Part shown: positions 77 to 60,848 of the stretch, piece by piece
How the letters are laid out: every line of letters starts with the position of its first letter
How positions within the stretch are numbered: the first letter of the stretch is position 1
Assembly: GCF_000383675.1 (NCBI RefSeq)
Contig: NZ_KB911823.1
Coordinates: 373,095 to 437,094, forward strand
DNA from: Terracoccus sp. 273MFTsu3.1
Lineage (GTDB): Bacteria > Actinomycetota > Actinomycetes > Actinomycetales > Dermatophilaceae
Direction of reading: 5' to 3'
Length of the DNA: 64,000 nt
The notes under the pieces: model-generated
What the model saw: the letters and a program-made list of their open reading frames with translations, nothing else
The model's database searches: none
What the model was told of the DNA's origin: nothing
Translations under genes and position numbers: made by a program

Positions 77-1501
77 ATGCCCGGCGGACACTCGCACAGC
101 CATGCCCACGGATCCTCTGCAGCGTCCGGCACCGTCGAGGTCAGCACGCTGGCGCGGTTCGGCCTCACCCTCCTGATCGCGCTCGCCGCCGCGGCCACGA
201 TCTTCGGTCTCGTGCGCTACTGGCCGGCGGAGTCGCAGGCGGCCGACCGGGTGGGCACGTCCGACTTCGCGGCTCCCGGGGTGACCTTCCCCGTCGCCGA
301 GGTCCAGCGGGTCCTCCCGGCCTGCGAGGGTGCCGAGGCCGGCACCGGGGCCGCCCCTGCCGCCGGGCAGGGGGGTGACGTCGTCGACGGGAGCCCGACC
401 TGCGGCGCGATCACGGTGCAGCTCGAACAACCCACCGCGACCTCGGGCGACGTGCGTCCGGTCGTGTCCGTCTCGGTGCCCCCCGCGGTCTCCACGTCGG
501 GCCTGCGCGACGGCGACACCGTCATGCTGCTGCGGACCCCGCCCCAGGACACCCAGCCCGAGACCTACTCCTTCCTCCAGGTGCAGCGCGGCGCTCCCCT
601 GTCGCTCATGCTCGCGCTCTTCCTCCTCGTCGTGGCGGTCGTCGCGCGTTGGCGCGGGATCCTGGCCCTCGTCGGTCTCGTCTTCGGCGGCTTCGTCGTC
701 GTCAAGTTCATGCTGCCGGCCCTGCTCGAGGGCCAGTCCGGGCTGCTCGTGGCCCTCATCGGCTCCTCGGCGATCATGTTCGTCGTCCTCTACCTCGCCC
801 ACGGGCTCTCGGTGCGGACGAGCACGGCCCTCGCCGGCACGCTCTTCGGCGTCGCGATCATTGCGGGTCTGGGTCTGCTCGCCGTCGACCTGGCACGCCT
901 GAGCGGGGTCGCCAACGACGAGGGTGCCACCCTGGCCTCCTTCGTCACGACGATGAACCCGCGCGAGCTGCTGACGTGCGCGATCATCGTGGCCGGTCTG
1001 GGCGTCCTCAACGACGTGACGATCACCCAGTCCTCGGCCGTGTGGGAGCTGCGTGCGGCTGCCCCCTCGATGGGGCGACGGGCGCTCTTCCAGTCGGGCA
1101 TGCGCATCGGGCGCGACCACATCGCCTCGACCATCTACACGATCGTCTTCGCGTATGCCGGTGCCGCCCTCCCGGTGCTGCTCCTCCTCTTCCTCTACGA
1201 GCGCCCGGTGCTCGAGATGCTCCAGACGGAGTCGCTGTCGGAGGAGATCGTCCGCACGCTCGCCAGCGCCATCGGTCTCGTGCTCGCCGTCCCCGTCACG
1301 ACGGCGGTCGCCGCGCTCACCGTCGGTGCAGCGCGTCCGCCGGCGCCGGCGGACGGCGACGGACGCAGCCCCGGTCAGCCGCGAGCCCTCGACGAGCCGG
1401 AGCAGCATGGCCCCACGGCAGCTGACCTCGTCCGAGCTGCCAGCGGGCCGCCGGCTCCGTTGACGCGGGCCGAGGCACGCTCGAGGATGTCCTCCTCCTG
1501 A
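77..1501 (+). CDS. YibE/F family multi-pass membrane protein
   Basis: Predicted 474-residue integral membrane protein of the YibE/F family, whose role is unproven. The N-terminus has a short His-rich stretch (GGHSHSHAHG), a first membrane helix near residues 29-50 and an extracytoplasmic domain of about 130 residues with several Cys. At least seven further helices follow, in the family pattern. I chose ATG 77 because the His-rich N-terminus fits the family and codons before it are unlike the rest of the gene. An in-frame ATG at 23 has a GAGGAG upstream and remains an alternative. The C-terminal tail of about 60 residues is Pro/Ala/Arg-rich and probably cytoplasmic. The His cluster could bind metal; that is inference. 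Confidence 0.8.
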   Translation: MPGGHSHSHAHGSSAASGTVEVSTLARFGLTLLIALAAAATIFGLVRYWPAESQAADRVGTSDFAAPGVTFPVAEVQRVLPACEGAEAGTGAAPAAGQGGDVVDGSPTCGAITVQLEQPTATSGDVRPVVSVSVPPAVSTSGLRDGDTVMLLRTPPQDTQPETYSFLQVQRGAPLSLMLALFLLVVAVVARWRGILALVGLVFGGFVVVKFMLPALLEGQSGLLVALIGSSAIMFVVLYLAHGLSVRTSTALAGTLFGVAIIAGLGLLAVDLARLSGVANDEGATLASFVTTMNPRELLTCAIIVAGLGVLNDVTITQSSAVWELRAAAPSMGRRALFQSGMRIGRDHIASTIYTIVFAYAGAALPVLLLLFLYERPVLEMLQTESLSEEIVRTLASAIGLVLAVPVTTAVAALTVGAARPPAPADGDGRSPGQPRALDEPEQHGPTAADLVRAASGPPAPLTRAEARSRMSSS

Positions 1502-1595
1502 CCGTTTCGTGCCGCCGGCGAGGGCCTGGCACCCTCCACGACGGGCATCAGCGCAGGTCAGCTCGGGCATCGCATCAGCCGACACTCGTGGGGCT

Positions 1596-1624
1596 TTCAA
1601 CCACTTCTCAGCAACCACTAGGCT
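1596..1624 (+). promoter_or_regulatory. Candidate promoter for the hexapeptide acyltransferase
   Basis: A TTCAAC hexamer (1596-1601) and a TAGGCT hexamer (1619-1624) are separated by 17 bases. The -10-like element ends 7 bases before the ATG at 1632, and there is no Shine-Dalgarno, so the mRNA is probably leaderless. Confidence 0.5.
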
Positions 1625-1631
1625 GCCCGCC

Positions 1632-2435: not shown

Positions 2436-2451
2436 GCCCTCTGGGGACACC

Positions 2452-2469: not shown

Positions 2470-4199
2470 AGCACCGCGGTCCACGTCGACCCGCCCGACT
2501 CGGTGAACGTCACGGTGACGGACGCCGCGTTGACGCCGTTCTTCGTGGCCGTCACCGTCGCGGTCGAGGTCGTGGCGTTCGGGGCCACGGTCACGGTCCC
2601 GGAGCCCGCGCTCTTGCCCGTCGACGTCCAGCCGATGCTCTCGGTCGCGCCGCTGTAGGACACCGGCGTCTGCGTGCTGCTCCCGAAGGCGACGTTCGCC
2701 GCGACGACCGCGTTGTTGCCACCGGCGACCGTGCAGGTGTACGACGAGCCGACCGTGCCGGTGCAGCTCGGCGTCACCGCCGTCCCGTTGACCGTGACGC
2801 CCGAGAAGACGAGCCCGACCGCCCCGCCGTTGACGACGCCCTGGCTGAGCGGAGCGGACGTCGACGCCGAGTGGTTCGCGGTGCCGACGTACGCAGCCGT
2901 GACCGAACGGGAGCCGGCGGTCGCGAAGGTCGTCGTGCAGGTGGCGACACCCGCCGCGCTGAGGGTCTGGCTGCCCGACGCGCAGGTGATCACGGTGGAG
3001 CCGTCCTTGAAGGTGACGCCGCCCGTCGGCACTCCCCCGCCGGGAGCCGTGGCGGCCACGGTCGCGGTGTAGGTGACGCTCTGGCCGGTCCGGACCGTCT
3101 GCGCCGAGGTCGTCAGGGTGGTCGTCGTGACGGCGGCTCCCACGACCTGGCTGACGGTCGGCGAGGTGGACGTGAGGTGGTCGGCGGAGCCGGAGTAGAC
3201 GGCGGTGATGCTCCGGGTCCCTGCGGAGACGAGGCTCACGACACAGGTCGTCGACCCGGAGGTGAGCGTCGGAGTGCCGCCGGTGCAGGTCAGGGTCGTC
3301 GCGCCGTCCTTGAAGGTGACCGTCCCACCGGGAGTGCCGCCACCGGGAGCCGACGCCGACACCGTGGCGGTGAAGGTGACGGACTGCCCCACCACCGACG
3401 GGTTCGTCGACGACGTGACCGACGTCGTCGTGGCGGCGGCGTTCACGACCTGCGACACCGCGGCCGAGGACGATCCCGCGTACGGCGCCGAGCCGGCATA
3501 CGCCGCCGTGATCGACCTCGTGCCTGCGGACGCCGGGGCGACGGTGCACGTCGCGGTGCCCGCGCTGAGCGTCTGGGAGCCGCCCGCGCACGTCAGGGCG
3601 GACCCGCCGTCACGGAAGGTGACCGACCCGGTCGGCGTGCCGGAGACCGCGCTGACCGTCGCGGTGTACGTCACGGGCTGTCCGACCACCGACGGGTTGG
3701 CGGACGAGCGCACCGACGTGCTCGTGGCGACCGACGCCTGGACGGTGACGGAAGCGCTCGAGGGGCTCGTCGCGGTCCACCCCGATCGCACCGCGACGAC
3801 GGTGTAGCGGAAGGTCCCGTCCGGGACCGACGGGTCGTTGCAGGACGTGGTGGTCAGCAGAGTTGACGGCGAGGTGCCACAGGCGGCGACGGTGGCGGAG
3901 GTCGTGACGTCGGTGCGGTCGACGCGGTACCCGGTGGGGGCCACGCCCGCCGACGGCGGGGTCCACGCGACGGAGACGGTCGTGGCGCCGGCGGCGGCCG
4001 TCGCCGTCACGGACGAGGGGGCCGAGAGGGTGGCGGTCGGTGCGGTGCCGGTGCCGCGCCCGCTGACGGTCCAGGACGCCCACGCGGTGCCGGACACCGT
4101 CATCAGCACCGCCATGAGGACGGTGACGCGGAGGGCGCGCACGCCGCGGCTCGGGGCTGCACGGCGTGCGCGCGTCTTCGGGGGCGTCGGGGCGGGCAT
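2457..4199 (-). CDS. Secreted Ig-like repeat protein with fibronectin type III and SipW-type leader
   Basis: 580 residues. A basic N-terminus, a hydrophobic segment (about 25-40) and the motif ASWTVSGRGTGTA form a leader like the SipW-dependent type, shared with the small subunit at 5291. A fibronectin type III-like domain (about 55-140) is followed by three Ig-like repeats of roughly 95 residues, each starting with (T)SV or TL, then NPSVVGQxVTxTATV and G-x-VTFxDG. A Gly/Thr/Ser-rich C-terminal region of about 130 residues follows. No LPXTG sorting signal, C-terminal membrane helix or enzyme motif is visible, so a surface or fibre-associated adhesin-like role is inferred. The start (ATG at 4199) overlaps the stop of the upstream gene as TGATG, implying translational coupling. 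An open frame continues upstream, but it is antiparallel-type shadow of the neighbouring gene and lacks a leader. Confidence 0.7.
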   Translation of the reverse strand: MPAPTPPKTRARRAAPSRGVRALRVTVLMAVLMTVSGTAWASWTVSGRGTGTAPTATLSAPSSVTATAAAGATTVSVAWTPPSAGVAPTGYRVDRTDVTTSATVAACGTSPSTLLTTTSCNDPSVPDGTFRYTVVAVRSGWTATSPSSASVTVQASVATSTSVRSSANPSVVGQPVTYTATVSAVSGTPTGSVTFRDGGSALTCAGGSQTLSAGTATCTVAPASAGTRSITAAYAGSAPYAGSSSAAVSQVVNAAATTTSVTSSTNPSVVGQSVTFTATVSASAPGGGTPGGTVTFKDGATTLTCTGGTPTLTSGSTTCVVSLVSAGTRSITAVYSGSADHLTSTSPTVSQVVGAAVTTTTLTTSAQTVRTGQSVTYTATVAATAPGGGVPTGGVTFKDGSTVITCASGSQTLSAAGVATCTTTFATAGSRSVTAAYVGTANHSASTSAPLSQGVVNGGAVGLVFSGVTVNGTAVTPSCTGTVGSSYTCTVAGGNNAVVAANVAFGSSTQTPVSYSGATESIGWTSTGKSAGSGTVTVAPNATTSTATVTATKNGVNAASVTVTFTESGGSTWTAVLTVS

Positions 4200-10324: not shown

Positions 10325-11287
10325 TCACAGACCGGCGGCCTTGTAGAGAGCCCCGATCTCGGCCTTGTTGAGCCGACGGGTGCGCCCGGACTTGAGGTCG
10401 GCGAGACGGATCGGGCCGACCTCGGTGCGGACGAGCTCGAGGACGGGGTGCCCGACGGCCTCGAGCATGCGGCGCACGACGTGCTTGCGGCCCTCGTGGA
10501 GCACCACCTCGACCATGGCCTTGCCCGGCTGGTGGTCGACGATCCGGAAGGAGTCGACGCTGACGGGACCGTCATCGAGCTCGACGCCCTCGCGCAGGCG
10601 CTTGCCGACGTCGCGCTGCACCGGGCCACGGATCGTCGCGACGTACGTCTTGAGGACGCCGTATGCCGGGTGCTGCAGCCGGTGGGCGAGGTCACCGTCG
10701 TTCGTGAGCAGGAGCAGGCCCTCGGTGTCGGCGTCGAGGCGCCCGACGTGGAAGAGGCGCTGCTCGCGGTTGCCGACGTAGTCCTCGAGCGAGATGCGGC
10801 CGAGCTCGTCGTGCATCGTCGTCACGACGCCTTTGGGCTTGTTGAAGGCGAGGTAGACGCGGTCCTCGTCGAGGTTGACGCGGACGCCGTCGACGTGGAC
10901 GACCTGCGTCTGCGGGTTGATCCGGACGCCGAGCTCGGTGACGATCTGGCCGTCGACCTCGACGCGCCCCTGCTCGATGAGGTTCTCGCAGACACGCCTC
11001 GAGCCGACGCCGCCGGCGGCCATGAGCTTCTGCAGGCGCACGCCGTCGGGGTCGTGGACGTCGATCTCGGGTGCGGGCTTGCGGTCGGGCAGCCGGGTGG
11101 GCTGGCTGGCCTTCGTCGAGCCCGCGAAGCGCGGCCCGGAGCCCTTGCCACCGGTCTTGCCGCCGCTGCTCTTGCCGCCCGCCACGGGTCGGCCGCCACG
11201 GCGGGCACCGCCGACGCTCCCGGGGCCTCCGGTGGGCCCGGAACCCTTCTTGCGCGGCTGGCGGGGGGATCTGGAGTACTCGCTCAT
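10325..11287 (-). CDS. rluB: 23S rRNA pseudouridine synthase (RluB/RsuA family)
   Basis: 320 residues. The first 75 are Gly/Lys/Arg/Pro-rich and disordered. An S4 RNA-binding domain (about 85-145, VRLQKLMAAGGVGSRRVCENLI) follows. Next is the RluB/RsuA catalytic core with FHVGRLDADTEGLLLLTNDG, holding the catalytic Asp in GRLD. It converts uridine to pseudouridine in rRNA; the exact site is by family. ATG 11287 overlaps the scpB stop (ATGA), placing it in the parA-scpA-scpB-rluB operon, a common bacterial grouping. Confidence 0.92.
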   Translation of the reverse strand: MSEYSRSPRQPRKKGSGPTGGPGSVGGARRGGRPVAGGKSSGGKTGGKGSGPRFAGSTKASQPTRLPDRKPAPEIDVHDPDGVRLQKLMAAGGVGSRRVCENLIEQGRVEVDGQIVTELGVRINPQTQVVHVDGVRVNLDEDRVYLAFNKPKGVVTTMHDELGRISLEDYVGNREQRLFHVGRLDADTEGLLLLTNDGDLAHRLQHPAYGVLKTYVATIRGPVQRDVGKRLREGVELDDGPVSVDSFRIVDHQPGKAMVEVVLHEGRKHVVRRMLEAVGHPVLELVRTEVGPIRLADLKSGRTRRLNKAEIGALYKAAGL

Positions 11288-11940
11288 GCGTGTCCTTCCT
11301 CGATGAGCTCGTCGATGACGTCGGCGTCCGGGAGGTAGGGCGCCAACGCCGGGAGGTCGTCGAGCGACGACAGTCCCATCCGCTGGAGGAAGTAGGGGGT
11401 CGTGCGGAAGAGCATGGCACCGCTCTCGCCCACGTCCTCGACCTCCTCGATGAGGCCGCGCGACGTCAGCGTGCGGACGACGCCGTCGACGTTGACCCCG
11501 CGCACGGCACTGACCCGGGCGCGGGACACCGGCTGGCGGTAGGCGATGACGGCGAGCGTCTCGAGCGAGGCCTGGGTCAGCTTGGCCTGCTGGCCGTCTA
11601 GGACGAACTTCTCGACCACGGGGGCGAAGTCGGACCGGCTGTAGACGCGCCATCCGCCCGCGACGCTGCGCAGGGTGAACCCGCGCTGCGCGGCGGCATA
11701 CTCCTCCTCGAGGGCGTGCAGGTGGCCCCGCACGTCGTCGACGGGCAGCTCGAGCGCCGACGCGAGGGCGACCTCGGTCACCGGCTCGTCGACGACCATG
11801 AGCACGGCCTCGAGCGCCGAGCGGGCGCCGCCCGGGAAGTCGTTGATGTCGAAGGCGATCTGCTCGTCGGCACCCTCGCGGTCGCCTAGCCCCTCGGGCT
11901 CGACGGTCGCGTCGGGCCCCTGCGCCGACTGGTCACTCAT
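11284..11940 (-). CDS. scpB: Segregation and condensation protein B
   Basis: 218 residues. It is the winged-helix kleisin partner of the SMC condensin. Motifs include ALEAVLMVVDEPV near residue 40, LRSVAGGWRVYSR, and LTQASLETLAVIAYRQPVSRA-type sequence in the second winged helix. ScpB binds ScpA and SMC to compact and segregate chromosomes. Its start overlaps scpA by 8 bases and its end overlaps rluB by 4, so the three are translationally coupled. The first 40 residues are acidic and variable. Confidence 0.94.
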   Translation of the reverse strand: MSDQSAQGPDATVEPEGLGDREGADEQIAFDINDFPGGARSALEAVLMVVDEPVTEVALASALELPVDDVRGHLHALEEEYAAAQRGFTLRSVAGGWRVYSRSDFAPVVEKFVLDGQQAKLTQASLETLAVIAYRQPVSRARVSAVRGVNVDGVVRTLTSRGLIEEVEDVGESGAMLFRTTPYFLQRMGLSSLDDLPALAPYLPDADVIDELIEEGHA

Positions 11941-14025: not shown

Positions 14026-15012
14026 TCAGCGGGCACGGGGGTGGGCGCCCGCATAGACCTCGCGGAGTCGGTGCACCGAGACCATCGTGTAGATCTGGGT
14101 CGTCGTGACGGAGGCGTGCCCGAGCAGCTCCTGGACGACGCGGACGTCCGCCCCGCCGTCGAGCAGGTGGGTGGCGAAGGAGTGGCGCAGGGTGTGGGGC
14201 GACACGTGTTCGGTGAGGTCGGCCCGCTCGGCGGCGCGGCGGATGATCGCCCAGGCCGACTGCCGCGACAGGCGTGCCCCGCGCTGGTTGAGGAAGAGCG
14301 CCGGGCCCCCCTGTCCGTGCGTGGCGAGGGCCGGACGGCCCCGGACGAGGTATGCCGTCACGGCCTCGACCGCGTAGCGGCCGACGGGGACGACGCGCTC
14401 CTTGCCACCCTTGCCGTGCAGCCGGACGGACGCCACTCCCCCGCCCTGCGGGGGAGTTCCGGAGCCGGCTGCGGGCCCGACGGTCTCGATGTCGTCGACG
14501 TCGAGGTCGACGGCCTCACTGATGCGGGCGCCCACGCCGTAGAGGACCTCGAGGAGTGCTCGGTCGCGCAGCGACTCGGGCGTGTCGCCGACCGAAGCCG
14601 CCGCGAGCAGCCGCTCCACGGCCTCGATCGGGATCGCCTTGGGCAGTCGGGCGGGTGGCTTGGGCGGGGCGACGTTGGCGGCCGGGTCGCCGGCCACCTC
14701 GCCCTCGAGGGCGAGGAAACGGTGGAAGCCCCGCACGGCGACGAGGGTGCGGGCCGCGGACGAGGCCGCGAGCCCGCGCTCGCGCAGGGACGCGAGGAAG
14801 TCGGTGACGTCTGCCTCGGTGACCCGGCTCGCGTCGTCGATCCCCTTGGCCGCCAGGAACGCCGCGTAGGAGCGCAGGTCGCGCGCGTAGGACTTGAGGG
14901 TGTTGTCGGAGGCGCCCCTCTCGACGCGGACGTGGTCGAGCCACCCGCGGACGTCGCGCTCGAGGCGCGAGGGCCGTGCCGCGGGTGGCTCGGTGACGAC
15001 CTGCTCGGTCAG
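14026..15012 (-). CDS. xerD: Tyrosine recombinase XerD, apparent CTG start
   Basis: 328 residues. It resolves chromosome dimers at dif together with XerC and FtsK. The N-terminal SAM-like domain (about 10-100, [19 protein letters not shown]) is complete. The catalytic domain shows [10 protein letters not shown] (Arg), [12 protein letters not shown] (Lys), [12 protein letters not shown] (His and Arg), [14 protein letters not shown] (His and the nucleophile Tyr). No ATG, GTG or TTG occurs in frame between the ald stop and the conserved N-terminus. The CTG at 15012 overlaps the ald stop as CTGA, just as ATGA and GTGA overlaps occur at other junctions here, so I take CTG as the start. A loop of about 12 residues near 187 ([12 protein letters not shown]) looks like an insertion. 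Confidence 0.88.
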
Positions 15013-16124
15013 GACAGGGCCTCGTCGAGACCGACCGACGTCATGCCGTGGGCCTCGGCGACGCCGGCGTACGTGACGTGCCCGTCGTGCGTGTTGAGAC
15101 CGAGGCCGAGCGCGTGGTCGGCGCGCAGCGCGTCGCGCCACCCCTGGTTGGCGAGCTTCACGGCATACGGCAGCGTCGAGTTCGTCAGGGCGTAGGTGGA
15201 CGTGTTGGGCACGGCCCCGGGCATGTTCGCGACGCAGTAGAAGACCGAGTTGTGCACCGTGTAGGTGGGGTCGGCATGCGTCGTCGCGTGGCTGTCCTCG
15301 AAGCACCCGCCCTGGTCGATGGCGATGTCGACGAGCACGGAGCCCGGCTTCATCTGGGAGACGAGCTCGTTGGAGACGAGCTTGGGAGCCGCCGCACCGG
15401 GGATGAGGACGGCGCCGATGACCATGTCGGCCTCCTGCACCTGCTGCTGCACCGTGAGGCGGTTGGAGGCCAGGCCGTGGACCTGGTTCTCGTAGCGCCA
15501 GAAGGACATCCGCAGCTTGTCGAGGTCGGTGTCGAGCAGCGTGACGTCGGCACCCATGCCGAGCGCGATGTTGGCGGCGTTCTGGCCCGACACGCCGGCG
15601 CCGAGGATGACGACCTTGGCGTTGGCCACCCCACCGACGCCGCCCATGAGCACGCCGCGGCCGCCCTGGGCGCGCATCAGCGCGTGGGCACCGACCTGCG
15701 GGGCGAGGCAGCCGGCCACCTCGGACATCGGGTAGAGCAGCGGCAGGGCCCCGGAGGGCAGCTGCACGGTCTCGTAGGCGATGCCGGTGACCTTGCGCTT
15801 GACGAGCTCCTCCGTGAGCGGCTTGTCGGCCGCGAGGTGGAGGTAGGTGAAGAGGGTCAGGCCCTCGCGCATCCGGTGGTACTCCTCGGCCACGGGCTCC
15901 TTGACCTTGAGCACCATGTCGGCCTCGCCCCAGACGTCGTCGGCCGAGCCGAGGATGCGGGCGCCTGCCGCGACGTAGTCGTCGTCGCTGATCTGCGAGC
16001 CGACACCGGCGTCCTTCTCGACGATGACGTCGTGTCCGTTCTCGGTGAGCTCGTGGACGCCTGAGGGCGTGATGGCCACGCGGTACTCGTGGTTCTTGAC
16101 CTCGCGGGGGATGCCGACCTTCAT
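15009..16124 (-). CDS. ald: Alanine dehydrogenase
   Basis: 371 residues, full family length. NAD-dependent interconversion of L-alanine and pyruvate plus ammonia. The N-terminus [20 protein letters not shown] is the family signature. The second signature with [20 protein letters not shown] forms the NAD-binding fold (about 170-190). Lys and His residues of the active site are in family positions (R-V-A near residue 15, K in MVLKVKEP, H in YLHLA). ATG 16124 has GGAAGGAAG upstream. xerD is coupled to its end by a CTGA overlap, an unusual pairing. Confidence 0.96.
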
Positions 16125-19420: not shown

Positions 19421-19473
19421 CGGACGGCATACGCCCTCGGGAGTGGGTGCCGACACACTGGGTATGCCGTCCG
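19421..19473. repeat. Intergenic inverted pair of the CGGCATAC motif
   Basis: 12-base arms (19421-19432 and 19462-19473, CGGACGGCATAC and its complement) flank a 29-base spacer. It lies between two divergent genes, so it is unlikely to be a terminator. Both arms contain the 8-mer that recurs through the window. Confidence 0.7.
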
Positions 19474-31551: not shown

Positions 31552-31634
31552 GGCATACCTCCCTGGGGCGTGGGGCTCTGGACGATCCGAACAGGTGTTC
31601 GGGACAACGCTAACGGGCCTCCCCCGAAAGGACG

Positions 31635-35622: not shown

Positions 35623-35650
35623 GCCCCCGATCGTGCCAGCCCCCGTCTCC

Positions 35651-35721: not shown

Positions 35722-35746
35722 GAGGTGGGTGGGTCGCGCGGCATGA

Positions 35747-35790
35747 CGGCGTGTGCCGCCGTGCCCGGTGGGGCACGGCGGCACACGCCG
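35747..35790 (-). terminator. Terminator after pdxS
   Basis: 20-bp perfect stem (35747-35766 with 35771-35790) and a GGTG loop, 23 bases past the pdxS stop. Confidence 0.75.
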
Positions 35791-41433: not shown

Positions 41434-44400
41434 TCAGCGGAGCGTCAGGGCGTACACCTCGAAGCGGTCGTCGGCGGGCAGGGTGACGGCCTGGAGCTGC
41501 CGGGCCGGGTCCACGGCCACGGTCGTGCCGAAGATCTGGACCGGAGGTCCGTCGACGCCCGAACCGCCCTTGATCCGATGGTCCATGGCAATCGCGACGG
41601 TGTTGCCGTTGTGCCCGCTGCCCGCCGCCCAGTCGGTCAGTGCGACCGGGACGGACTGGACGCTGCCGTCCGTGTAGGTCAGGCGCAGGGCCGTCCCCAC
41701 GTCGCCGTTGTGCGTCGACCCGACGAGATGGATCGTCGAGCGGCTGCCGGCCTGGACGAGCAGCGTCTGGCCGCGCCCCTCGACGAAGTTCGGCGTCGTG
41801 CCGGAGGTGACCGGGGCGGCATACGTGGTCCCGTCGTGCACCCACGGGCCCGGAGCGGGCAGCAGGGCTGCGTCGTAGCTCCAGCCGCTGCCGTCGAAGT
41901 TGCCCTCGCTCGGTGCGGCGACGGTCGCCGTGCCGTCGTGGTTGCGGGCCGGCGCCAGGTCCACGGCGCACCCCGGTGCGCCGTCCACGCAGTCGAGGGC
42001 CTCGCGGACCTGGACGGGCACCGTGCGCGTCACGGCATCGACGCCGGGGGCGGTGGCGGTCACGACCACCTCGTGGTCACCCACGCCCAGGCCGGCGGGG
42101 AGGCGAAGGGTCACCGGAACGGTCGCGCTCGCGGGCACGCCGTTGCTGTGCAGCACGGCAGCACCCTCGCCGCCCGAGCCCACCGCGGCCGTCCAGCCTG
42201 CGGGGGCCGTCACGGACACGTCGACCGGCAGACTCTTCGGGGCCTGGCCCACGAGGTCGACGGCGAGGCGGGCCTCACGCGCCCCGGTCGGCACGACGAC
42301 GGGGTTCGGACGAGCGGCCATCGAGAGCGACAGGCGCGGGTCGCGTCCGGCCTGCACGGCCGACGGCGGCACGTCGGCCGGCGTCGTGCCCCAACGGCTC
42401 GGGGTCGTCCCCACGGTGTGCGCGACGGACCCTCCCTGCCGGATGGCGTCCCAGCCGACCCAGCTCTTCGTGCTCCGGGCACCGTCGACGGTCAGGGTCT
42501 GGACGTAGCGCCGGTCGTCGGACACCCCGGGCGCGGTGATCGTCAGGTGACCGCCCTGTCCGGTGCGCACCGACGTCGGAGCGGCCACGGCGACGTCGAC
42601 GCGCTCGAACTGGGGCGAGCTGACGACGAAGACGTTCGACCCGCTCATCGTCGGGTAGAGGCCCCAGGACGAGAAGACGTACCACGCCGACATCGTGCCG
42701 AGGTCGTCGTTGCCGGTCATGCCGTCGGGGCCGTCGGTGAAGAGGGTGAAGGCCGCCCGTGCCACCGTGGCGATCTTGGCGGGCTGCTGGACCCAGGCGT
42801 AGACGTAGGGCGCGAGCAGGTCGGGCTCGTTGTTCGGGTTGTAGGTGGGCTTGCTGTAGTAGGCGTAGGTCGCCTCGATCCAGTCGGTGCGTGCGGTGCC
42901 GGCCGGGTCGGTGAGCAGCTCCGGGTAGGCGAAGAAGTCGTCGAGGCGCTTCTCGGTCGCCGCCCGACCACCCATGAGGCGGGTGAGGCCGGCCGGGTCC
43001 TGCGGGACGAGCCACTGGTACTGGTACGAGCCGCCCTCGTGGAAGGCGTGCGACGCCTCGACGGGGTCGTAGGGGTCGAGCCACGTCCCGTCGGCCAGAC
43101 GCGGGCGGAAGGTCTGCGTCCCGGCGTCCCAGAGGTTGCGGTACCAGCCGCTGCGCTCGGTGAGCATCGCCGCGTCGGCGGTGTGGCCCAGCCCCTTGGC
43201 CATCAGGGCGAGGGACGCGTCGGCGGCGGAGTACTCCAGCGTCGCCGAGGCGGGGTGGGCGCAGTCGTTGTCCCCGCCGTGCGACACGCAGTCGGTGCCC
43301 ACGTCCAGACCGAAGGGGATGTAGCCGAGCTTCTCGTACCAGTGCTGCCCGGCGCGGCCGTTGTACTGGCTGTCGGCGGGCGGGCGCTCGGTCGCGTTCT
43401 GCTTGAGCAGCGCGTACGCCTCCGCCTCGTGGCCGGTGAGGAAGCCCTTGCTCCAGCCCTCGACGAGGAACGGGGTGACCGGGTCGCCGGTCATGATGTT
43501 GGTCTCGCTGTTGACGAGCGCCCAACGGGGCAGCCATCCGCCCTCGCGACCGATGGCGAGCACGGACAGGTAGGAGTCGCGGGCCACGTCGGGTGCGAGG
43601 ACCTCGAGGAGCTGGTTCTGCGGGCGGTAGGTGTCCCACAGCGAGAAGTTCTGGCGCGGCGTGTAGCCCTGCGCCACGTGGTTCTTCCCGTCCCAGCCGT
43701 GGTACCGACCGTCGACGTCGGACGCGAGGTTCGGGTGCATGAGCGAGTGGTAGAGCGCGGTGTAGTAGGCGGTGCGACGCTCGGTCGTGCCGCCCGTGAC
43801 GCGGGCCTTGCCGAGCTCGGACTCCCACCGCTGGGCGAGCGCGGCCCGGGTGGCGTCGAAGTCGAACGAGTCACCGGTCTCCTTGGCCAGGTTGGTGCGC
43901 GCGCCGTCGGGGCCGGTGTAGCTGAGGGCGACCTTCATCGTCACGGACGTCGTGCCCGTCGGGAAGGTGACCGCGGCCCCGTTGCCGGCGTTCGTCGTGG
44001 ACGCGTCACGGGCCCCTGACGTCAGCGTCGACCCGCTCCAGGTGCCGAACGAGCTGAAGGGCCGGTCGAACTCGGCCCGGAACCACACCGTGTGCTCGTC
44101 CTTGCCCGCGCAGAAGTTGCCGTCGTGGATGCGGCCCTCGACGACCCGGTCGCCGACGACGTGGACCTCGGAGTCGAAGACCCGCATGTTGGCCTTGCCG
44201 GTGTTGAGCAGGACGTTCGGCTGCTTGTCGGCCGGGAACGTGTAGCGCTGCCAGCCGGTGCGGTCGGTGGCGGTCAGCTCGGCCTGGACGCCGTGGCTCG
44301 CCAGGCCGACGCGGTAGTAGCCGGGTTCGGCCTCCTCGTCGGTGTGGCTGTAGGTGGACCGGTAGCGGTCCGGGTCCACGGTCGTCACGGAGCCGGTCGT

Positions 44401-44833: not shown

Positions 44834-44890
44834 GACGTATGCCGCCGGGCCCGGTCCCGATGAGGGGCACCCGACCCGACGGCATACGTC
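44834..44890. repeat. Second intergenic inverted pair of the CGGCATAC motif
   Basis: 11-base arms GACGTATGCCG (44834-44844) and its complement (44880-44890) with a 35-base spacer, between thrS and the GH92 start. It could end thrS transcription, but the long spacer argues for a protein-binding pair. Confidence 0.7.
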
Positions 44891-49001: not shown

Positions 49002-49859
49002 TCACCAGGTGTTCTCGACGACGGCGTGCTCGATCTCGCCCTTCGCGTGCTCGAGGACCGAGAGCGTGCGCGACGCCTCGAACGCCGTGCGCAGCCGCAC
49101 CGACGACGGCAGCCGCACCGGCTTGCGGAACCACACGCGGCTCGTGAGCCCGGCCTCCGGCAGCCGCGGCCCGAGGGCGGCGAGCACCCTGGCGTAGGAG
49201 TACATCCCGTGGGCGATCGCGCTCGGGAAACCGAGCGGCCTGGCGGTCAGCGCGTGCACGTGGATGGGGTTCCAGTCACCCGACACGGCGGCATACGCCC
49301 GACCGGTGCCCTCGCCGAGTCGCCACAGCGGCCCCGTCGTGACGGCGGCGAGCGGGGCGGTCGACGGTGGCTCGGACGGGTCGGCGTCAGGGTGCTCGGC
49401 CCCGCGTGAGAGGTAGGTGCTCACCCCGCGCCACACGACCTCGCCCCGCACCCCGACCTCTGACACGAGGTCGACCTGCCGGCCGCGGCGGTGAGGTCGG
49501 AGGTCCTGCGCCCAGACCGAGACGTCGAGCGGCTCGTCGACCCCGACGGGTCGCAGCGCCTCGATGCGGTTCTCGACGTGGACGGCACCGAGCAGCGGGA
49601 GGGGGAAGCGGTCGCCGCTCATGACCGCCATCTGGAGCGGGAAGGCCACGAGGTGCGGGTAGGTGGGCGGCAACGTGCCGGAGACGGGGAAGCGGCACAC
49701 GTGGGCGTAGTCGACGAGCTCGTCGACGTCGACGCGTATGCCGGCCCGTGACCAGCGGACGTCGGGCAGCGTGTCGCTCGAGCTGCCCCTGCGGAGCGCG
49801 GCCGTGGCGTAGATCCGGCGCAGGTCGGGCGCCGCGTCGAGGGTGATCTCCTTGGTCAT
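49002..49859 (-). CDS. MaoC-like (R)-hydratase, HtdX-like
   Basis: 285 residues. Double hotdog arrangement. The C-terminal hotdog carries GDWNPIHVHALTARPLGFPSAIAHGMYSYARV, the MaoC hydratase motif with Asp and His. It should hydrate trans-2-enoyl thioesters to (R)-3-hydroxyacyl thioesters. Gene order FadA2-FabG4-HtdX as in mycobacteria suggests the HtdX name. ATG 49859 lies 7 bases after the fabG4-like stop. Confidence 0.85.
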   Translation of the reverse strand: MTKEITLDAAPDLRRIYATAALRRGSSSDTLPDVRWSRAGIRVDVDELVDYAHVCRFPVSGTLPPTYPHLVAFPLQMAVMSGDRFPLPLLGAVHVENRIEALRPVGVDEPLDVSVWAQDLRPHRRGRQVDLVSEVGVRGEVVWRGVSTYLSRGAEHPDADPSEPPSTAPLAAVTTGPLWRLGEGTGRAYAAVSGDWNPIHVHALTARPLGFPSAIAHGMYSYARVLAALGPRLPEAGLTSRVWFRKPVRLPSSVRLRTAFEASRTLSVLEHAKGEIEHAVVENTW

Positions 49860-49866
49860 GGGACGC

Positions 49867-51186
49867 TCACGCCCCGAGCAGGCTCTGGCCGCAGACGCGG
49901 ACCACATGCCCCGTGACGGCCGCAGCCCCGGGCTGGGCGAACCAGGCGATGGTCTCGGCGACGTCCTTCGGGTGGCCGCCCTGCTGGAGAGAGTTCATCC
50001 GGCGCCCGATCTCCCTCGTGGCGAAGGGGATCCGCGCCGTCATCTCCGTCTCGATGAAGCCTGGAGCGACGGCGTTCACCGTGATCCCGCGGTCCGCGAC
50101 CTGGCGCGACAGCGCGGTGACGAGGCCGATGACGCCGGCCTTGCTCGCGCCGTAGTTCGTCTGGCCACGGTTGCCGGCGATGCCCGCGATCGAGGCGACG
50201 CAGACGATGCGGCCGCCGTCGGCGAGTCCGCCCTCGCCGAGGATCGCGTCGTTCATCCGCAGGACCGAACGGAGGTTGACCTCCATGACGCTGTGCCATC
50301 GGTCGTCGTCCATGTTGACGAAGAGCTTGTCGCGGGTGATGCCGGCGTTGTGCACGACGACGTCGAGGCCGCCGTGCCGCGTCGTGGCGTGCTCCACGAT
50401 GCGGGAGCCGGCGTCGTCCGACGTGACGTCGAGCTGGAGCGCAGTGCCCCTGACCTCGTTGGCCACCGTGGCCAGCGCATCACCGGCCGCCGGGACGTCG
50501 ACCGCGACGACCGTCGCGCCGTCACGGGCCAGCACGCGGGCGATCTCGGCACCGATGCCTCGCGCCGCGCCGGTCACGACGGCCACCTTGCCGTCGAGAG
50601 GGCGCAGCGCGTCGACGTCCCCGCTCGTGGACTCGTCGACCCGGACCACCTGTCCGTCGACGTAGGCCGAACGCCCGGAGAGGAAGAACTCGACGGCGGA
50701 CCTGACGCCGTCGTGCGCCTGCCCCTGTGCGAGAACGAGGTTCGCCGTCGCTCCCCCTCTCAGCTCCTTGCCGAGGGAGCGCACGGCGCCCTCGAGGGCA
50801 CGCTGGGTCGTCACCTCGGCGACGTCCGTCAGCGTGGCCGGGTCCGTGCCGATGACCACGACGCGACCGTTGCGTCTGAGCGCCTTGACGGCGGGGGCGC
50901 CGAGCAGACGAAGCTGGTCGAGATCGGCCGGGTCGGTGGCGGCGCTGAGGTCGAGGACCACCGCCCCGACCTTGTCGCCCTCGTCGGGCAGCGTGGACAC
51001 CGCGGCGACCCCCTCGCCCCCGAGCCAGGCGGCGACGCCGTCGGCGAAGCGGCCGCCGCCCGCGACGAGCACCGGCCCCTCGCACAACGGCATACCGGGT
51101 TCGTAGCGGCGCAGCCGGGTCGGCTGTGGCACGCCGACCTTTCGGGCCACGGGCGAGCTGACGATGGTCGTGAAGAGGTCGGTCAT
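49867..51186 (-). CDS. High-molecular-weight 3-oxoacyl-ACP/CoA reductase, FabG4-like
   Basis: 439 residues. The C-terminal short-chain dehydrogenase (about 205-438) has VTGAARGIGAEIARVL, the NAG segment VVHNAGITRDK, and the catalytic Ser...YxxxK in SIAGIAGNRGQTNYGASKAG. The N-terminal 200 residues form a flavodoxin-like domain without a cofactor motif, as in FabG4-type long reductases. It reduces 3-oxoacyl thioesters, probably with NADH as in its mycobacterial relative. ATG 51186 has GGAGG at good spacing. Confidence 0.88.
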   Translation of the reverse strand: MTDLFTTIVSSPVARKVGVPQPTRLRRYEPGMPLCEGPVLVAGGGRFADGVAAWLGGEGVAAVSTLPDEGDKVGAVVLDLSAATDPADLDQLRLLGAPAVKALRRNGRVVVIGTDPATLTDVAEVTTQRALEGAVRSLGKELRGGATANLVLAQGQAHDGVRSAVEFFLSGRSAYVDGQVVRVDESTSGDVDALRPLDGKVAVVTGAARGIGAEIARVLARDGATVVAVDVPAAGDALATVANEVRGTALQLDVTSDDAGSRIVEHATTRHGGLDVVVHNAGITRDKLFVNMDDDRWHSVMEVNLRSVLRMNDAILGEGGLADGGRIVCVASIAGIAGNRGQTNYGASKAGVIGLVTALSRQVADRGITVNAVAPGFIETEMTARIPFATREIGRRMNSLQQGGHPKDVAETIAWFAQPGAAAVTGHVVRVCGQSLLGA

Positions 51187-53325: not shown

Positions 53326-55374
53326 ATGTCCACGGCCACAGACTCCCCCACAGACTCCCCCACGGACTCCCCCACCGGCTCGCGCGGCAGCTCGGTCGGC
53401 TCGCCTGCAGCCAGCCGCTCCCCGGCACCCGAGCACCTCGACCCGGGCCCCGGGCCCGAGACCCCGTCCCGACCCGCGCTGACCGCGGCCCTCCGCGACC
53501 ACCTCGACGGCCCGTTCGGCGAGGTCCGTGACCACTGCCGAGCGCTCGACGCCGCGACGTTCGGACCACCGTCGGCGCCGCTGCCGATGGAGGAGCACCG
53601 CTCCCGGGTCACCGCCCAGCTCGCTGCCCTGGCCGCGGAGCCGTACGCCGCTCGCGGGTTCCCCGAGCACCAGGGCGGCACCGCCCGCTACGGCGAGGCC
53701 GTCGCCGCCTTCGAGATGCTCGGTCACACCGACCTCTCGCTCTTCGTCAAGGCCGGCGTCCAGTGGGGCCTCTTCGGCGGCGCGGTCTCGCTCCTCGGCA
53801 CGAGTCGCCACGACCACCTCCTGCCGCGCATCACGTCCGGCGAGCTGCAGGGCTGCTTCGCGATGACCGAGACGGGCCACGGCAGCGACGTGCAGAGCCT
53901 GCTGACCACGGCGACCTTCGACCCGGGGACCGACGAGATCGTCATCCACTCCCCCGAGCCCGCGGCACGCAAGGACTACATCGGCAACGCGGCCCGCGAC
54001 GGGCGCATCGCGGCGGTCTTCGCACAGCTCGTCGTGGGCGGCGAGTCCCGTGGCGTGCACTGCGTGCTCGTCCCGATCCGCGACGAGTCCGGCACTCCCG
54101 CAAGGGGTGTGACCATCGAGGACTGCGGTCCCAAGCTCGGTCTCGCCGGCGTCGACAACGGACGGCTGCTCTTCGACCACGTCCGGGTGCCGCGCACCAA
54201 CCTGCTCGGCCGCTACGGCGACATCGGTGACGACGGCACCTACACCAGCCCCATCGACAACCCCGGCCGCCGCTTCTTCACGATGCTCGGCACGCTCGTC
54301 CGCGGTCGCATCTCGGTGGCCGGTGGAGCGGGCGCCGCGGCCCGTTCGGCCCTGGCCGTGACCACGACGTATGCCGCCGGGCGCCGCCAGTTCGCCGCCC
54401 CCGGCACCGAGGTGGAGACGACCGTCCTCGACTACCGCACCTACCAGCGGCGCCTGCTGCCGAGGATCGCGACGGCATACGCCCTCCAGCTCGCGCAGCA
54501 CGAGCTCGTCTCCGCGATGGACGACGTGCTCGCCGGGCGCACGACGTCCGAGGAGGACCAGCGCCGGCTCGAGACCCGGGCGGCTGGCATCAAGGTGCTG
54601 ACGACCCGGCACGCGACCGACACCATCCAGGAGTGCCGCGAGCTGTGCGGCGGGGCCGGCTACCTCTGGGCCAACCGTCTCGCCGCGCTCAAGGCCGACA
54701 CCGACATCTTCACGACCTTCGAGGGCGACAACACCGTGCTGCTCCAGCTCGTCGCCAAGTCGCTCCTCGCCGAGTACCAGGCGACCTTCGGCGACCTCGA
54801 CACCGCCGGGATCGTGCGCTTCGGCGCGCGGCTGGTCGGCGGCACCGTCATCGAGCGGTCGTCCGCGCGGGGCATCATCCAGCGACTCGTCGACGCCGCG
54901 CCGGGCCGCGAGGAGGACGTCACCTTCGGCATCCGCGGCACCCAGCTGCGTCTGTTGCGCGAGCGAGAGGAGCACCTCATCGAGGGCCTGGCCCGACGGC
55001 TCCGGCGGGCCACCGCCCCGGGCGCCGACGCGTTCGCGATCTTCAACGCGACGCAGGACCACCTCGTCGACGCGGCGACGGCACACGTCGAGCGCACGGT
55101 CGCCGAGACGTTCGCTGCCTCGGTCGAGTCCTGCACCGACGACGAGGCGCGCGCCGTGCTCGCCCGGGTCTGCGACCTCTACGCCCTGTCGACGATCGAG
55201 CGCCACAAGGCGTGGTACCTCGAGCACGACCGGCTGAGTCCTGCGCGCGCCAAGGCGCTCACCGCCCTCGTCAACGAGGTCTGCGCGGAGCTGCGCCCGC
55301 ACGCCACGACGCTCGTCGACGCCTTCGGCATCCCCGAGGGCCTGCTGACGACGGAGATGTCGGGGACAACCTGA
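53326..55374 (+). CDS. Acyl-CoA oxidase/dehydrogenase family protein
   Basis: 682 residues. The first 40 are a DSPT-repeat-containing disordered leader. The acyl-CoA dehydrogenase core (about 60-470) has GCFAMTETGHGSDVQSL (FAD and substrate loop) and ECRELCGGAGYLWANRL with FTTFEGDNTVLLQLVAKSLL, the acyl-CoA oxidase-type block. A helical C-terminal domain of about 180 residues is like acyl-CoA oxidases. It introduces the trans-2 double bond in beta-oxidation. GGAAGG lies before ATG 53326, 23 bases after the TetR gene. Confidence 0.88.
   Translation: MSTATDSPTDSPTDSPTGSRGSSVGSPAASRSPAPEHLDPGPGPETPSRPALTAALRDHLDGPFGEVRDHCRALDAATFGPPSAPLPMEEHRSRVTAQLAALAAEPYAARGFPEHQGGTARYGEAVAAFEMLGHTDLSLFVKAGVQWGLFGGAVSLLGTSRHDHLLPRITSGELQGCFAMTETGHGSDVQSLLTTATFDPGTDEIVIHSPEPAARKDYIGNAARDGRIAAVFAQLVVGGESRGVHCVLVPIRDESGTPARGVTIEDCGPKLGLAGVDNGRLLFDHVRVPRTNLLGRYGDIGDDGTYTSPIDNPGRRFFTMLGTLVRGRISVAGGAGAAARSALAVTTTYAAGRRQFAAPGTEVETTVLDYRTYQRRLLPRIATAYALQLAQHELVSAMDDVLAGRTTSEEDQRRLETRAAGIKVLTTRHATDTIQECRELCGGAGYLWANRLAALKADTDIFTTFEGDNTVLLQLVAKSLLAEYQATFGDLDTAGIVRFGARLVGGTVIERSSARGIIQRLVDAAPGREEDVTFGIRGTQLRLLREREEHLIEGLARRLRRATAPGADAFAIFNATQDHLVDAATAHVERTVAETFAASVESCTDDEARAVLARVCDLYALSTIERHKAWYLEHDRLSPARAKALTALVNEVCAELRPHATTLVDAFGIPEGLLTTEMSGTT
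53341..53376 (+). repeat. Three 12-bp tandem repeats (GACTCCCCCACN)
   Basis: Copies at 53341, 53353 and 53365 encode DSPT units in the disordered N-terminus of the acyl-CoA oxidase. Confidence 0.85.
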
Positions 55375-58310: not shown

Positions 58311-58415
58311 GGGCACCCCTGTGCCGACGTGAGGTCCGGCGGGCGTCGGGGTGACGGAGCCAAACAATAGCCGGTGGTGGCGCGGTCGCGGTAATCGCCC
58401 CTCGCGGGGCGCGTC

Positions 58416-58895: not shown

Positions 58896-59737
58896 GGGTC
58901 GCTGTCCCGCTCGGCGTTGGTCCGAAAGACCCGCTGCAGCTCGGTCGTGACGGGGCCGTCGGCGGGCAGCTCCCGGTCGTCGACGGCATGGACGGGCAGG
59001 ACGTCCTTGGTCGAGCTCGTGATGAAGACCTCGTCGGCGGTGCGGAGCACGTCGAGAGGCAGCGTCTCCTCGCGGATGTCGAGGCCGGCGGCACGGCCCC
59101 ACTCGATGGTGAGCTCGCGCGTGATGCCGAGCAGCAGCCCGGACTCGGCCGGCGGAGTCAGCACGACGCCGTCGACGACGACGAAGACGTTGCTCCCGGT
59201 GCACTCGCACAGCTCGCCGCGGGTGTTGCCGAAGACGGCCTCGACGGCGCCCGCCTGCTTGGCGCGCGCGAGGGCGACGACGTTCTCGGCGTACGACGTC
59301 GTCTTGAGCCCGACGACGGCCGATCGTTCGTTGCGGGTCCACGGGACGACGGTGAGCTTCCCGCTCGGCGGAGGGGGTGTCTGTGGCGCCGCGACGACGA
59401 TGTAGGTCAGCGCCGCGTCGTCGCGGTCGGACCCGAGAGGTCCGACGCCCCCGGTGACGCTGTAGCGCAGCCGCCCGAAGTCGATCGCGGTCCCGTCGAG
59501 GACCGCGGCCACGCCCGCGTCGACGACGCCGAGGTCGACCGGAGGCAGACCGAGCCCGGCCGCCGAGCGCTCGAGACGACGGTGGTGGCGGGTCAGGGCG
59601 AACGGCGTGCCCGCGACGATCTTGGCGGTCTCGAAGACGCCGTCACCGACCGTGACCGAGTGGTCGAGGGCGGAGACGGAGGGGCCGTTCGGGTCGACGA
59701 GGTGGCCGTTGACCCAGACGCGCGTGGTCGTGCTCAT
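58892..59737 (-). CDS. pabC: Aminodeoxychorismate lyase (class IV aminotransferase)
   Basis: 281 residues. PLP class IV fold. Motifs: DHSVTVGDGVFETAKI, YAENVVALARAKQAGAVEAVFGN and GITRELTIEWG. The catalytic Lys should be in KTTSYAENV. In this pairing with pabB the expected role is release of 4-aminobenzoate from aminodeoxychorismate; a branched-chain or D-amino acid transaminase cannot be fully excluded. GGAAGGGA precedes ATG 59737. Confidence 0.85.
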   Translation of the reverse strand: MSTTTRVWVNGHLVDPNGPSVSALDHSVTVGDGVFETAKIVAGTPFALTRHHRRLERSAAGLGLPPVDLGVVDAGVAAVLDGTAIDFGRLRYSVTGGVGPLGSDRDDAALTYIVVAAPQTPPPPSGKLTVVPWTRNERSAVVGLKTTSYAENVVALARAKQAGAVEAVFGNTRGELCECTGSNVFVVVDGVVLTPPAESGLLLGITRELTIEWGRAAGLDIREETLPLDVLRTADEVFITSSTKDVLPVHAVDDRELPADGPVTTELQRVFRTNAERDSDP

Positions 59738-59789
59738 GGTCCCTTCCTGATGGCTCGGCGACCGCCCGGAAGGCGCCCGACGGGAGCCC

Positions 59790-60848
59790 TCATGGTGTCA
59801 CAGTGCCGGCGGCGAGCCCGATGAGGCGGGCCGCCTTGAGCTGGGTCTCGGCCCACTCCCCCTCCGGGTCCGAGTGCCACGTGATGCCGGCGCCGGTGCC
59901 GAAGCGCAGCCACCGCCGACCCTCCTCGTCGCGCTCGGCCCAGAAGGTGCGGATGCCGACGGCGAGGTCGGCCTCCCGGGCGTCGGCATCGACCCAGCCG
60001 ACCGCGCCGCAGTACGGCCCGCGGGGCACCCTCTCGAGGTCGCGGATCGCCGCGAGCGCGCTCGACTTCGGGGCCCCGGAGACCGAGCCCGGCGGGTAGG
60101 CGGACGCGAAGACGTCGCTCCAGCCGACGCCCTCACGCAGGTGCCCGCTGACCGTGGAGACGAGGTGGACGAGGCCGGGGTGCGCCTCGGTCGCGCAGAG
60201 CTCGTCGACGGAGACCGACCCTGGCTCGCAGACACCCGACACGTCGTTGCGCATGAGGTCGACGATCATGACGTTCTCGGCGTAGTCCTTGGGCAGCATC
60301 TGCTCGGCGGTCGCGGCGGTGCCCTTGATCGGGCGGGTCACGAGGCGCGCGCCCCGACGCCCGAGGAAGAGCTCCGGCGAGGCGCCGACGACGTCGAGGC
60401 CTGCGTCATCGCACCGGATCCGTGCGGCGTGCGGCGCCGGGTTGCCTTCTCGCAGTAGCGCATCGAGCCCGTCGAGGTCGGCGTCATCGGGCAGCGCGTG
60501 GCTGAGCACGCGACAGACGTTGACCTGGTAGACGGTCCCGGACGCGATGCGCTCACGCACCTCGCGCACGGCGCCGACGTATGCCGTCCGGTCCAGTGAG
60601 GTGTGCCAGTGGCGGTCGAGCGGCTGCCAACCCACGGCGCCCGCGGCGGCCGCGGTGGCCGCGGTGGCCGGCCCGGCGGCATACGTCCTCGGAGTGACCT
60701 CGGCGAAACGCACGGCGGTGACGGCACCCTCGAACGTGGCCACGACGGCCCAGAAGCCCTCGCGCGTCATCGCGTCGAGGGCTTCCCGGCCGTGGCGGAC
60801 GTCGACGACTCCGTGCGCGTCCCGGTCGGCGAAGCGGGCGTGGTCCAC
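59790..60848 (-). CDS. pabB: Aminodeoxychorismate synthase component I (chorismate-binding)
   Basis: 352 residues. The chorismate-binding core has VYQVNVCRVLSHAL, SPELFL, PIKGTA, KDYAENVMIVDLMRNDVSGVCEPGSV and PPGSVSGAPKSSALAAIRDLE, all diagnostic. The N-terminus is shorter than in full PabB/TrpE. It is next to pabC, indicating folate synthesis. GTG 60848 has TACGAT 6 bases upstream and no Shine-Dalgarno. Confidence 0.9.
   Translation of the reverse strand: MDHARFADRDAHGVVDVRHGREALDAMTREGFWAVVATFEGAVTAVRFAEVTPRTYAAGPATAATAAAAGAVGWQPLDRHWHTSLDRTAYVGAVREVRERIASGTVYQVNVCRVLSHALPDDADLDGLDALLREGNPAPHAARIRCDDAGLDVVGASPELFLGRRGARLVTRPIKGTAATAEQMLPKDYAENVMIVDLMRNDVSGVCEPGSVSVDELCATEAHPGLVHLVSTVSGHLREGVGWSDVFASAYPPGSVSGAPKSSALAAIRDLERVPRGPYCGAVGWVDADAREADLAVGIRTFWAERDEEGRRWLRFGTGAGITWHSDPEGEWAETQLKAARLIGLAAGTVTP

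Follow-up and report, generated by a model that had tools for sequence, protein, structure and literature searches.

A densely repeated octamer in Terracoccus and its family: a candidate self-DNA signal resembling uptake sequences

A 64,000-nucleotide stretch of the genome of Terracoccus sp. 273MFTsu3.1 (Dermatophilaceae; contig NZ_KB911823.1, positions 373,095 to 437,094; the whole stretch is called the window here) carries 28 copies of a single octamer, CGGCATAC, 15 on the plus and 13 on the minus strand. This word is over-represented across the genome, its sites are kept in place between related species, and copies on the same strand avoid one another. On a modest balance of probability, it is best read as an uptake-type signal that identifies self-DNA, with ACGGCATACG as its best form. 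Its density, symmetry, conservation, hairpins and patchy family distribution, together with a second, probably related word, agree with this explanation. Uptake sequences are established for Neisseriaceae and Pasteurellaceae.

Abundance, conservation and spacing of the octamer

A first-pass annotation of the window, made from its letters alone, had proposed a strongly over-represented 8-mer with about 28 copies in near-even orientation (13 and 15), and had placed 28 of about 30 GCATAC hexamers within the longer word. Exact counting agrees, giving 28 copies, 30 GCATAC and 28 GGCATAC. For CGGCATAC, dinucleotide shuffling predicts 0.81 copies in the window (maximum 5 among 100 shuffles) and an order-3 Markov model 1.36. 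In the whole 4.94 Mb genome (G000; other G-numbers denote genomes of the family and class sample), the word occurs 2,244 times (1,111 plus, 1,133 minus), or once per 2.2 kb, compared with 257 copies (141 plus, 116 minus) of a control, the same word read backwards. When all 8-mers are ranked against a third-order Markov model, as the annotation had advised, CGGCATAC comes first by z-score in 464 kb of G000 (236 vs 12.1 expected, z 64), and masking the word during training of the model lowers the expectation to 2.7 to 6.1. The preferred extended form, ACGGCATACG, is found 82 times in the same sequence against 0.9 expected. A count near the Markov expectation, named in advance as an argument against a signal, is thus not what is observed. 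Instead, one short word is strongly over-represented genome-wide, as is the case for the DNA uptake sequence (DUS) of Neisseriaceae and the uptake signal sequence (USS) of Pasteurellaceae.

The word is not confined to a particular coding context. Gene calls throughout rest on a heuristic using GC content at third codon positions (GC3). In 864 kb of G000, 331 of 440 sites fall inside called genes, and the other 109 (25%) lie outside them, in the 16% of the DNA left uncalled. The in-gene sites use all six frame/strand settings (177, 87, 35, 18, 9 and 5), extending to these 864 kb what had been noticed in the window. The rare Ile codon ATA, said to be forced by the word in a ruvC, a DUF4037 and an htdX-like gene, is indeed present there (31011, 35160 and 49736), and two further cases were newly found at 16780 and 51088. 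Together with the genome-wide counts, frame usage supports the original suggestion of a genomic signal not tied to one protein frame.

The sites are also conserved between species. The window was compared with its orthologous counterparts in six species belonging to the genus, and the numbers are small; 63 positions carry CGGCATAC in some species, 14 of them upstream of the window, where no relative's DNA was compared. In G008, 22/24 window sites are intact, compared with fractions of 0.68 for all 8-mers, 0.74 for words of the same composition and 0.57 for one-mismatch neighbours. The corresponding values are 24/25 for G007 (0.66, 0.71 and 0.69), 22/26 for G006 (0.50, 0.59 and 0.45), 18/23 for G005 (0.45, 0.53 and 0.32), 21/27 for G003 (0.42, 0.50 and 0.30) and 18/25 for G001, which has 86% identity (0.37, 0.44 and 0.23). 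Sites of CGGCATAC are therefore kept in place far more than other 8-mers.

Spacing was analysed in the same 864 kb of G000 and in 400 kb of a second dense genome, G140. In G000 the two strands are used about equally (217 plus, 223 minus), and neighbouring sites alternate strand in 290 of 438 pairs (p 1e-11). Same-strand pairs closer than 1 kb number 39 against 112 expected (ratio 0.35), and none of 2,000 strand shuffles gives a value as low, whereas opposite-strand pairs (127 vs 112 expected) show no repulsion. Each strand thus bears its own spaced ladder of sites, largely blind to the other. Among 269 control 8-mers with 300 to 600 hits, the same-strand ratio has a mean of 1.16 (standard deviation 0.15) and a lowest value of 0.73. 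G140 has 33 same-strand and 80 opposite-strand pairs within 500 bp (0/2,000 shuffles), and the repulsion is absent there at 500 to 1,000 bp (same-strand ratio 1.09).

A replication-strand bias is absent from the 760 kb of G000 examined, where counts on the two strands are 58/65 and 138/137 either side of a cluster of parS-like sites; the earlier statement that the word lacks an FtsK-like skew therefore stands. The cluster consists of five parS-like sites (GTTTCACGTGAAAC) within 3 kb of contig 1, at about 211200-214100, and is assumed to lie in the origin region. A lack of replication-strand bias has likewise been reported for the uptake sequences of Haemophilus and Neisseria (PMC1939737).

Close copies on opposite strands can form hairpins. 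Thirteen neighbouring opposite-strand pairs lie within 60 bp, nine ordered GTATGCCG...CGGCATAC and four in the reverse order, and perfect stems of 15 to 19 bp are present in five of the 13. Hairpin terminators formed by uptake sequences have been described for Neisseria and Haemophilus (PMC2397512, PMC5217627). Separately, each arm of a perfect 20 bp hairpin at window positions 35747-35790 contains CGGCACAC; the corresponding arms in G008 and G003 each contain CGGCATAC, suggesting that a terminator-like hairpin gained or lost the word in its two arms together. Near it, window 35632-35740 holds an inverted repeat some 80 to 110 bp long that belongs to a dispersed palindromic element family; dozens of related copies occur, on either strand, in at least eight of the nine genus genomes.

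The 28 window sites are listed in Table 1. Several coordinates in the first-pass annotation were right, and some were 1 to 11 bases off (the true starts include 15161, 23539, 24548, 39525, 60579 and 60677).

Table 1. Sites of CGGCATAC in the window. Residues at the site are in one-letter code; species counts are aligned species with the intact word, the window's own included.
Position	Strand	Context	Species with intact word
1153..1160	-	within called gene, AYAG on opposite strand	2/2
3494..3501	+	PAY	3/3
10661..10668	-	RHT	6/7
11694..11701	+	EYAA, opposite	6/7
14350..14357	-	RYAV, opposite	7/7
15161..15168	+	PYAV, opposite	7/7
16780..16787	-	TGIH with ATA	6/7
19425..19432	+	outside called genes, convergent pair with 19462	7/7
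19462..19469	-	outside called genes, pair with 19425	4/7
23539..23546	+	AYAV, opposite	6/7
24548..24555	-	TAY	7/7
24703..24710	+	AYAV, opposite	6/7
25277..25284	+	RYAG, opposite	5/7
31011..31018	-	gene called ruvC in first-pass annotation, SGIP with ATA	7/7
31551..31558	+	gene boundary	7/7
34255..34262	+	TAY	5/7
35160..35167	-	DGIR with ATA	5/7
39525..39532	-	AAY	6/7
41817..41824	+	TYAA, opposite	6/6 aligned
44837..44844	-	between called genes, divergent inverted pair with 44880	6/7
44880..44887	+	between called genes, pair with 44837	6/6 aligned
49289..49296	+	AYAA, opposite	4/7
49736..49743	-	AGIR with ATA	5/7
51088..51095	+	NGIP with ATA	4/7
54369..54376	-	TYAA, opposite	6/7
54473..54480	+	TAY	7/7
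60579..60586	-	TAY	4/4 aligned
60677..60684	+	TYAA, opposite	3/3 aligned

Distribution in the family and a second word

Genomes with at least 100 copies of CGGCATAC per Mb are termed dense here. Related genera, which the first-pass annotation had recommended comparing, are in many cases rich in the word: among 186 family genomes (53 genera), 108 from 31 genera are dense, 13 carry 40 to 100 copies per Mb and 65 fewer than 40. All nine genomes of the window's genus are dense. The highest density per Mb in the family is that of G201, with 4,205 copies in 3.1 Mb or one per 0.7 kb, and strand totals over the 108 dense genomes are 101,512 and 101,176. Three genera mix dense genomes with a single one below 40 per Mb (G065, G126 and G150). 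Outside the family, none of the 386 genomes in the class sample reaches 100 copies per Mb. The highest of these, judged by eye, is G236 (386 copies in 7.5 Mb, 2.2 times control), and the highest control ratio among outside genomes with more than 100 copies is found in G497 (170 vs 27).

To put names to dense loci, 58 of 80 loci were read, each classed on 8 to 21 kb only. Dense loci among them include Terrabacter, Humibacillus xanthopallidus, Intrasporangium, Knoellia, Pedococcus, Tetrasphaera, Serinicoccus and Ornithinimicrobium. Two of three Arsenicicoccus loci are dense; five of six Janibacter loci are without the word, and the sixth (HTCC2649) is dense.

A second word, CGNCGTAC, marks part of the remaining family. 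For example, G126 has no copy of CGGCATAC in 400 kb, and its top over-represented 8- and 9-mers are CGCCGTAC and ACGCCGTAC. At least five times as frequent as its backwards control in nine of the 186 family genomes (4,637 to 8,819 copies), CGNCGTAC is never accompanied there by a dense complement of CGGCATAC, and its highest ratio, 11.9, is that of G126. The median ratio in CGGCATAC-dense genomes is 0.96 (e.g. G148, 177 vs 912), and the measures of the two words are negatively correlated across the 186 genomes, which are not independent of one another (Spearman -0.53). Within the family, the two words are nearly mutually exclusive. This split runs even through a single genus, in which G126 carries CGNCGTAC while G127 and G033 carry CGGCATAC. 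It is likely that CGNCGTAC is a dialect related to CGGCATAC; dialects are known for the DUS of Neisseriaceae (PMC3630211).

In G126, the share of CGNCGTAC outside called genes is proportional (22% vs 21% of DNA). Its same-strand repulsion is weak, at 0.53 to 0.86 between 20 and 1,000 bp; ordinary codon words of G000 cluster. Overlapping palindromic forms account for some of the opposite-strand excess below 20 bp. Enrichment of CGNCGTAC is also seen in other actinobacterial families, where it reaches up to 16-fold over the backwards control (e.g. G357, G300 and G239) and varies much between species. A possible third word, CGNTCTAC, was noticed in G065, a genome poor in CGGCATAC (loci L043, L044 and L138-L141); with 71 copies vs 34 expected in 120 kb, it is too weak to claim.

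The family distribution, cross-species conservation, strand-specific spacing, hairpin pairs and probable second dialect all go beyond what had been noted for the window at first.

Import machinery and competing explanations

Candidate machinery for reading such a signal is encoded in G000. It includes ComEA (SLBB plus helix-hairpin-helix), a full-length ComEC that includes the lactamase-fold part, and a set of clustered Tad/Flp genes, tadA-B-C-flp-tadE-tadE-tadG, the last three of which are minor-pilin-like. The TadA protein of G000 shares 99% and 98% identity with those of two Terrabacter species. Transformation of Micrococcus luteus is reported to require comEC and tad genes, and to drop more than 100-fold upon deletion of tadB (PMC4322843).

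We infer that the word is read at the time of import, that drive maintains it and that CGNCGTAC is served by the same machinery. In this scheme, fragments carrying CGGCATAC would be preferred by a receptor belonging to the DNA-import apparatus, probably a component of the Tad/Flp pilus or the ComEA that feeds ComEC. Conspecific DNA with the word would then be imported and recombined more often, and sites would build up and be maintained through molecular drive (biased gene conversion), whether or not selection for safe recombination also contributes. A change in receptor specificity would give rise to another dialect, such as CGNCGTAC, and a lineage in which specificity was lost would also lose the word. 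The strand-specific spacing could arise if import or processing of one strand started at a site and ran one way, since a nearby second site in the same orientation would then add nothing.

A more ambitious version of this proposal can be formulated. In it, CGGCATAC would be a new kind of orientation-specific self-DNA signal, the first of the uptake type in Gram-positives. Its reader, built from Tad/Flp, ComEA and ComEC, would import or process one strand one way from each site, which would give either strand its own evenly spaced ladder. Its dialects would extend over much of the Actinomycetes, with CGGCATAC used in this family and CGNCGTAC elsewhere. This fuller version is offered tentatively and is on the doubtful side.

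Gene content across the family gives a mixed picture. A linked competence gene had been suggested as something to look for; ComEA, ComEC and Tad/Flp are present, but the same machinery occurs in word-free genomes. All of flp, tadE1, tadE2 and tadG were found in 20 of the 22 genomes read, which comprise dense, CGNCGTAC-rich, mixed and word-free ones. The contig of G128 ends after tadE1. In G126 (L160) and at locus L162, the Tad cluster is broken after tadC, with unrelated DNA next, and G033 and G127 keep flp and the minor pilins. None of the four genes was found in the 8.5 kb of G126 scanned, and inspection by eye of a GC3-filtered list of open reading frames for the following 8 kb revealed none of them either. 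Six genomes have no ComEC match: five are dense in CGGCATAC, G205 has 90 copies per Mb, and four of the six are at most 81% complete.

Three other gene families were tried as discriminators and rejected. PilM (PF11104), representing the type IV pilus, matches in 7 of the 186 family genomes, has no match in 179 and does not follow CGGCATAC; RecC, in 89, does not follow it either; and PDDEXK_1 is present in all 186. No gene family searched in these genomes (PilM, RecC, ComEC, PDDEXK_1) follows the word. RecC is patchy within the family and is found in one of the nine genomes of the window's genus.

Several observations weigh against an uptake-type signal. ComEC is found in 180 of the 186 family genomes, word-free ones included, and word-free G097 and G009 possess flp and three minor-pilin genes, so that the presence of the machinery does not predict the word. 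The genome with the highest CGNCGTAC ratio, G126, is one with a broken Tad cluster. Strand-specific repulsion is not predicted by plain double-strand uptake drive; uptake by Haemophilus is described as independent of site orientation, and uptake sequences as less evenly placed than packing sites would be (PMC1939737). The excess of sites outside called genes does not recur in dense G140 (22% of sites vs 24% of DNA). Four polarised branches record six losses and no gains of CGGCATAC. Its 24 one-mismatch neighbours, summed, are in mild excess (332 vs 234 expected), from which recognition of the word nonetheless looks sharp. As for CGNCGTAC, clear same-strand repulsion was not seen in small samples of G059, G128 and G031, and genomes of other families are also rich in it (G357, 12,732 vs 788; G300, 8,353 vs 643), which means that it may be an older, independent or separate signal.

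The main rival is a Chi-like recombination hotspot, since Chi is also directional. A helicase-nuclease, proposed to be of the AdnAB type because no RecC match was found in G000, would read the word in one orientation as it degrades DNA inwards from a double-strand end, and would then switch to recombination. An asymmetric 8-mer with little mismatch tolerance would serve this purpose, a reader travelling one way suits strand-specific spacing, and proteins with PDDEXK_1, the nuclease domain found in AdnAB among others, are universal in the family sample. Polarity and spacing, however, both count against Chi. The leading-strand bias missing from the 760 kb is a property used to define Chi (PMC8022716). 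In E. coli, 100 Chi sites in 350 kb are skewed 66:34 between strands and cluster on the same strand (24 pairs within 1 kb vs 15.7 expected), and RecC, present in 89 of the 186 family genomes, does not track CGGCATAC. A Chi-like role is thus rather improbable.

Less probable again is a word of the type of the cyanobacterial highly iterated palindrome 1 (HIP1), or one otherwise linked to methylation, which an orphan methyltransferase or methylation-guided uptake or defence would favour. HIP1 is another genome-wide 8-mer, tied to orphan methyltransferases (PMC4390886), and Campylobacter is reported to recognise methylated DNA for uptake (PMC8468864). HIP1 is palindromic, whereas CGGCATAC is not, and the two strands of CGGCATAC behave independently. 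The first-pass annotation had likened the word to both uptake sequences and HIP1. Patchy distribution, conservation, strand-specific spacing, hairpin pairs and the probable second dialect favour the former likeness over the palindromic, methylation-linked type.

A similarly low probability attaches to a site under direct selection that is bound by a protein organising the chromosome, or by some other intracellular DNA-binding protein. Conservation and even spacing, with 15 to 28 sites in each 40 kb stretch over the 760 kb, would be expected of such sites, and related words may mark a changed protein. Against this, the copies number in the thousands and lie mostly inside called genes (331/440), strand skew is absent, and 65 of the 186 genomes, among them one each from three genera that are dense apart from it, have fewer than 40 copies per Mb.

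A mutation or repair bias, such as Vsr-like very short patch repair, that makes CGGCATAC from one neighbour is highly improbable. Interspecies differences are commonest at position 5 (A vs G or C), and one neighbour of sizeable expectation, CGGCAGAC, is depleted (20 vs 45.6); yet each of the eight positions shows differences, the word most often exchanged with CGGCATAC, CGGCGTAC, is over- rather than under-represented (55 vs 25.0), and a local repair bias cannot produce spacing over 1 to 2 kb.

Finally, codon-pair bias and an adapter artefact can be dismissed with near certainty: although most in-gene sites (264/331) fall in the Tyr-Ala and Ala-Tyr settings and published adapter sequences contain CGGCATAC (Illumina P7 even ACGGCATACG), the use of all six settings and the quarter of sites outside called genes show that Ala-Tyr/Tyr-Ala codons, the other counter-argument foreseen by the annotation, do not explain the enrichment, other codon words cluster and do not repel, flanks vary among the 28 window sites, and orthologous sites exist in separately assembled genomes.

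Comparison with known systems

No report of an actinobacterial uptake sequence was found in the literature searched, most subscription journals being outside its coverage; searching for the word as a string was uninformative, with the adapter as one source of hits. Dense, sparse and switched genomes within one family, and even one genus, provide a natural experiment for finding the receptor. The same family bears on the old question of whether such words result from drive or selection, and the strand-specific spacing is a fresh mechanistic clue. The distribution of the word also points to soil actinobacteria worth trying for natural transformation.

On the side of the machinery, the M. luteus Flp/Tad transformation system shares tadA-B-C-flp-tadE-tadE-tadG and comEA-comEC with G000, and differs from its cluster in needing two tad clusters (PMC4322843). 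The term 'uptake sequence' is absent from the main text of that paper.

Among genome-wide words, HIP1 (GCGATCGC) resembles CGGCATAC in being an 8-mer without a fixed frame, and differs in being a palindrome and in its published link to methyltransferases (PMC4390886). Chi, like CGGCATAC, is an asymmetric, over-represented and lineage-specific 8-mer. It differs in its leading-strand bias and in its opposite spacing behaviour, and unlike the Chi read by RecBCD, CGGCATAC occurs without a RecC match in G000 and in seven of the eight other genomes of the genus.

The two strands of the USS were reportedly each found by Karlin in 1996 to be evenly spaced separately. Density, lack of orientation bias and fairly even spacing are shared by the USS and CGGCATAC (PMC1939737, PMC7811141); the USS excess outside genes has a parallel in G000 but not in G140. 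The two sequences are unrelated, and USS uptake is described as orientation-independent (PMC1939737), whereas the orientations of CGGCATAC are separately spaced.

With the neisserial DUS, which is read by the minor pilin ComP, CGGCATAC shares its density, presence on both strands, lack of replication bias, hairpin-forming inverted pairs (in G000), conservation and, probably, related words in relatives. It differs in its actinobacterial host, in the rarity of the type IV pilus gene PilM (just 7/186 family genomes) and in its strand-specific spacing. The neisserial form ATGCCGTCTGAA and the reverse complement of CGGCATAC in its extended version have ATGCCGTC in common, presumably by chance. The likeness falls short of identity, since neither CGGCATAC nor its complement GTATGCCG contains the CTG core common to all DUS dialects (PMC3630211). 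Nevertheless, the features that CGGCATAC has in common with both families of uptake sequences suggest that it may work like the DUS and USS.

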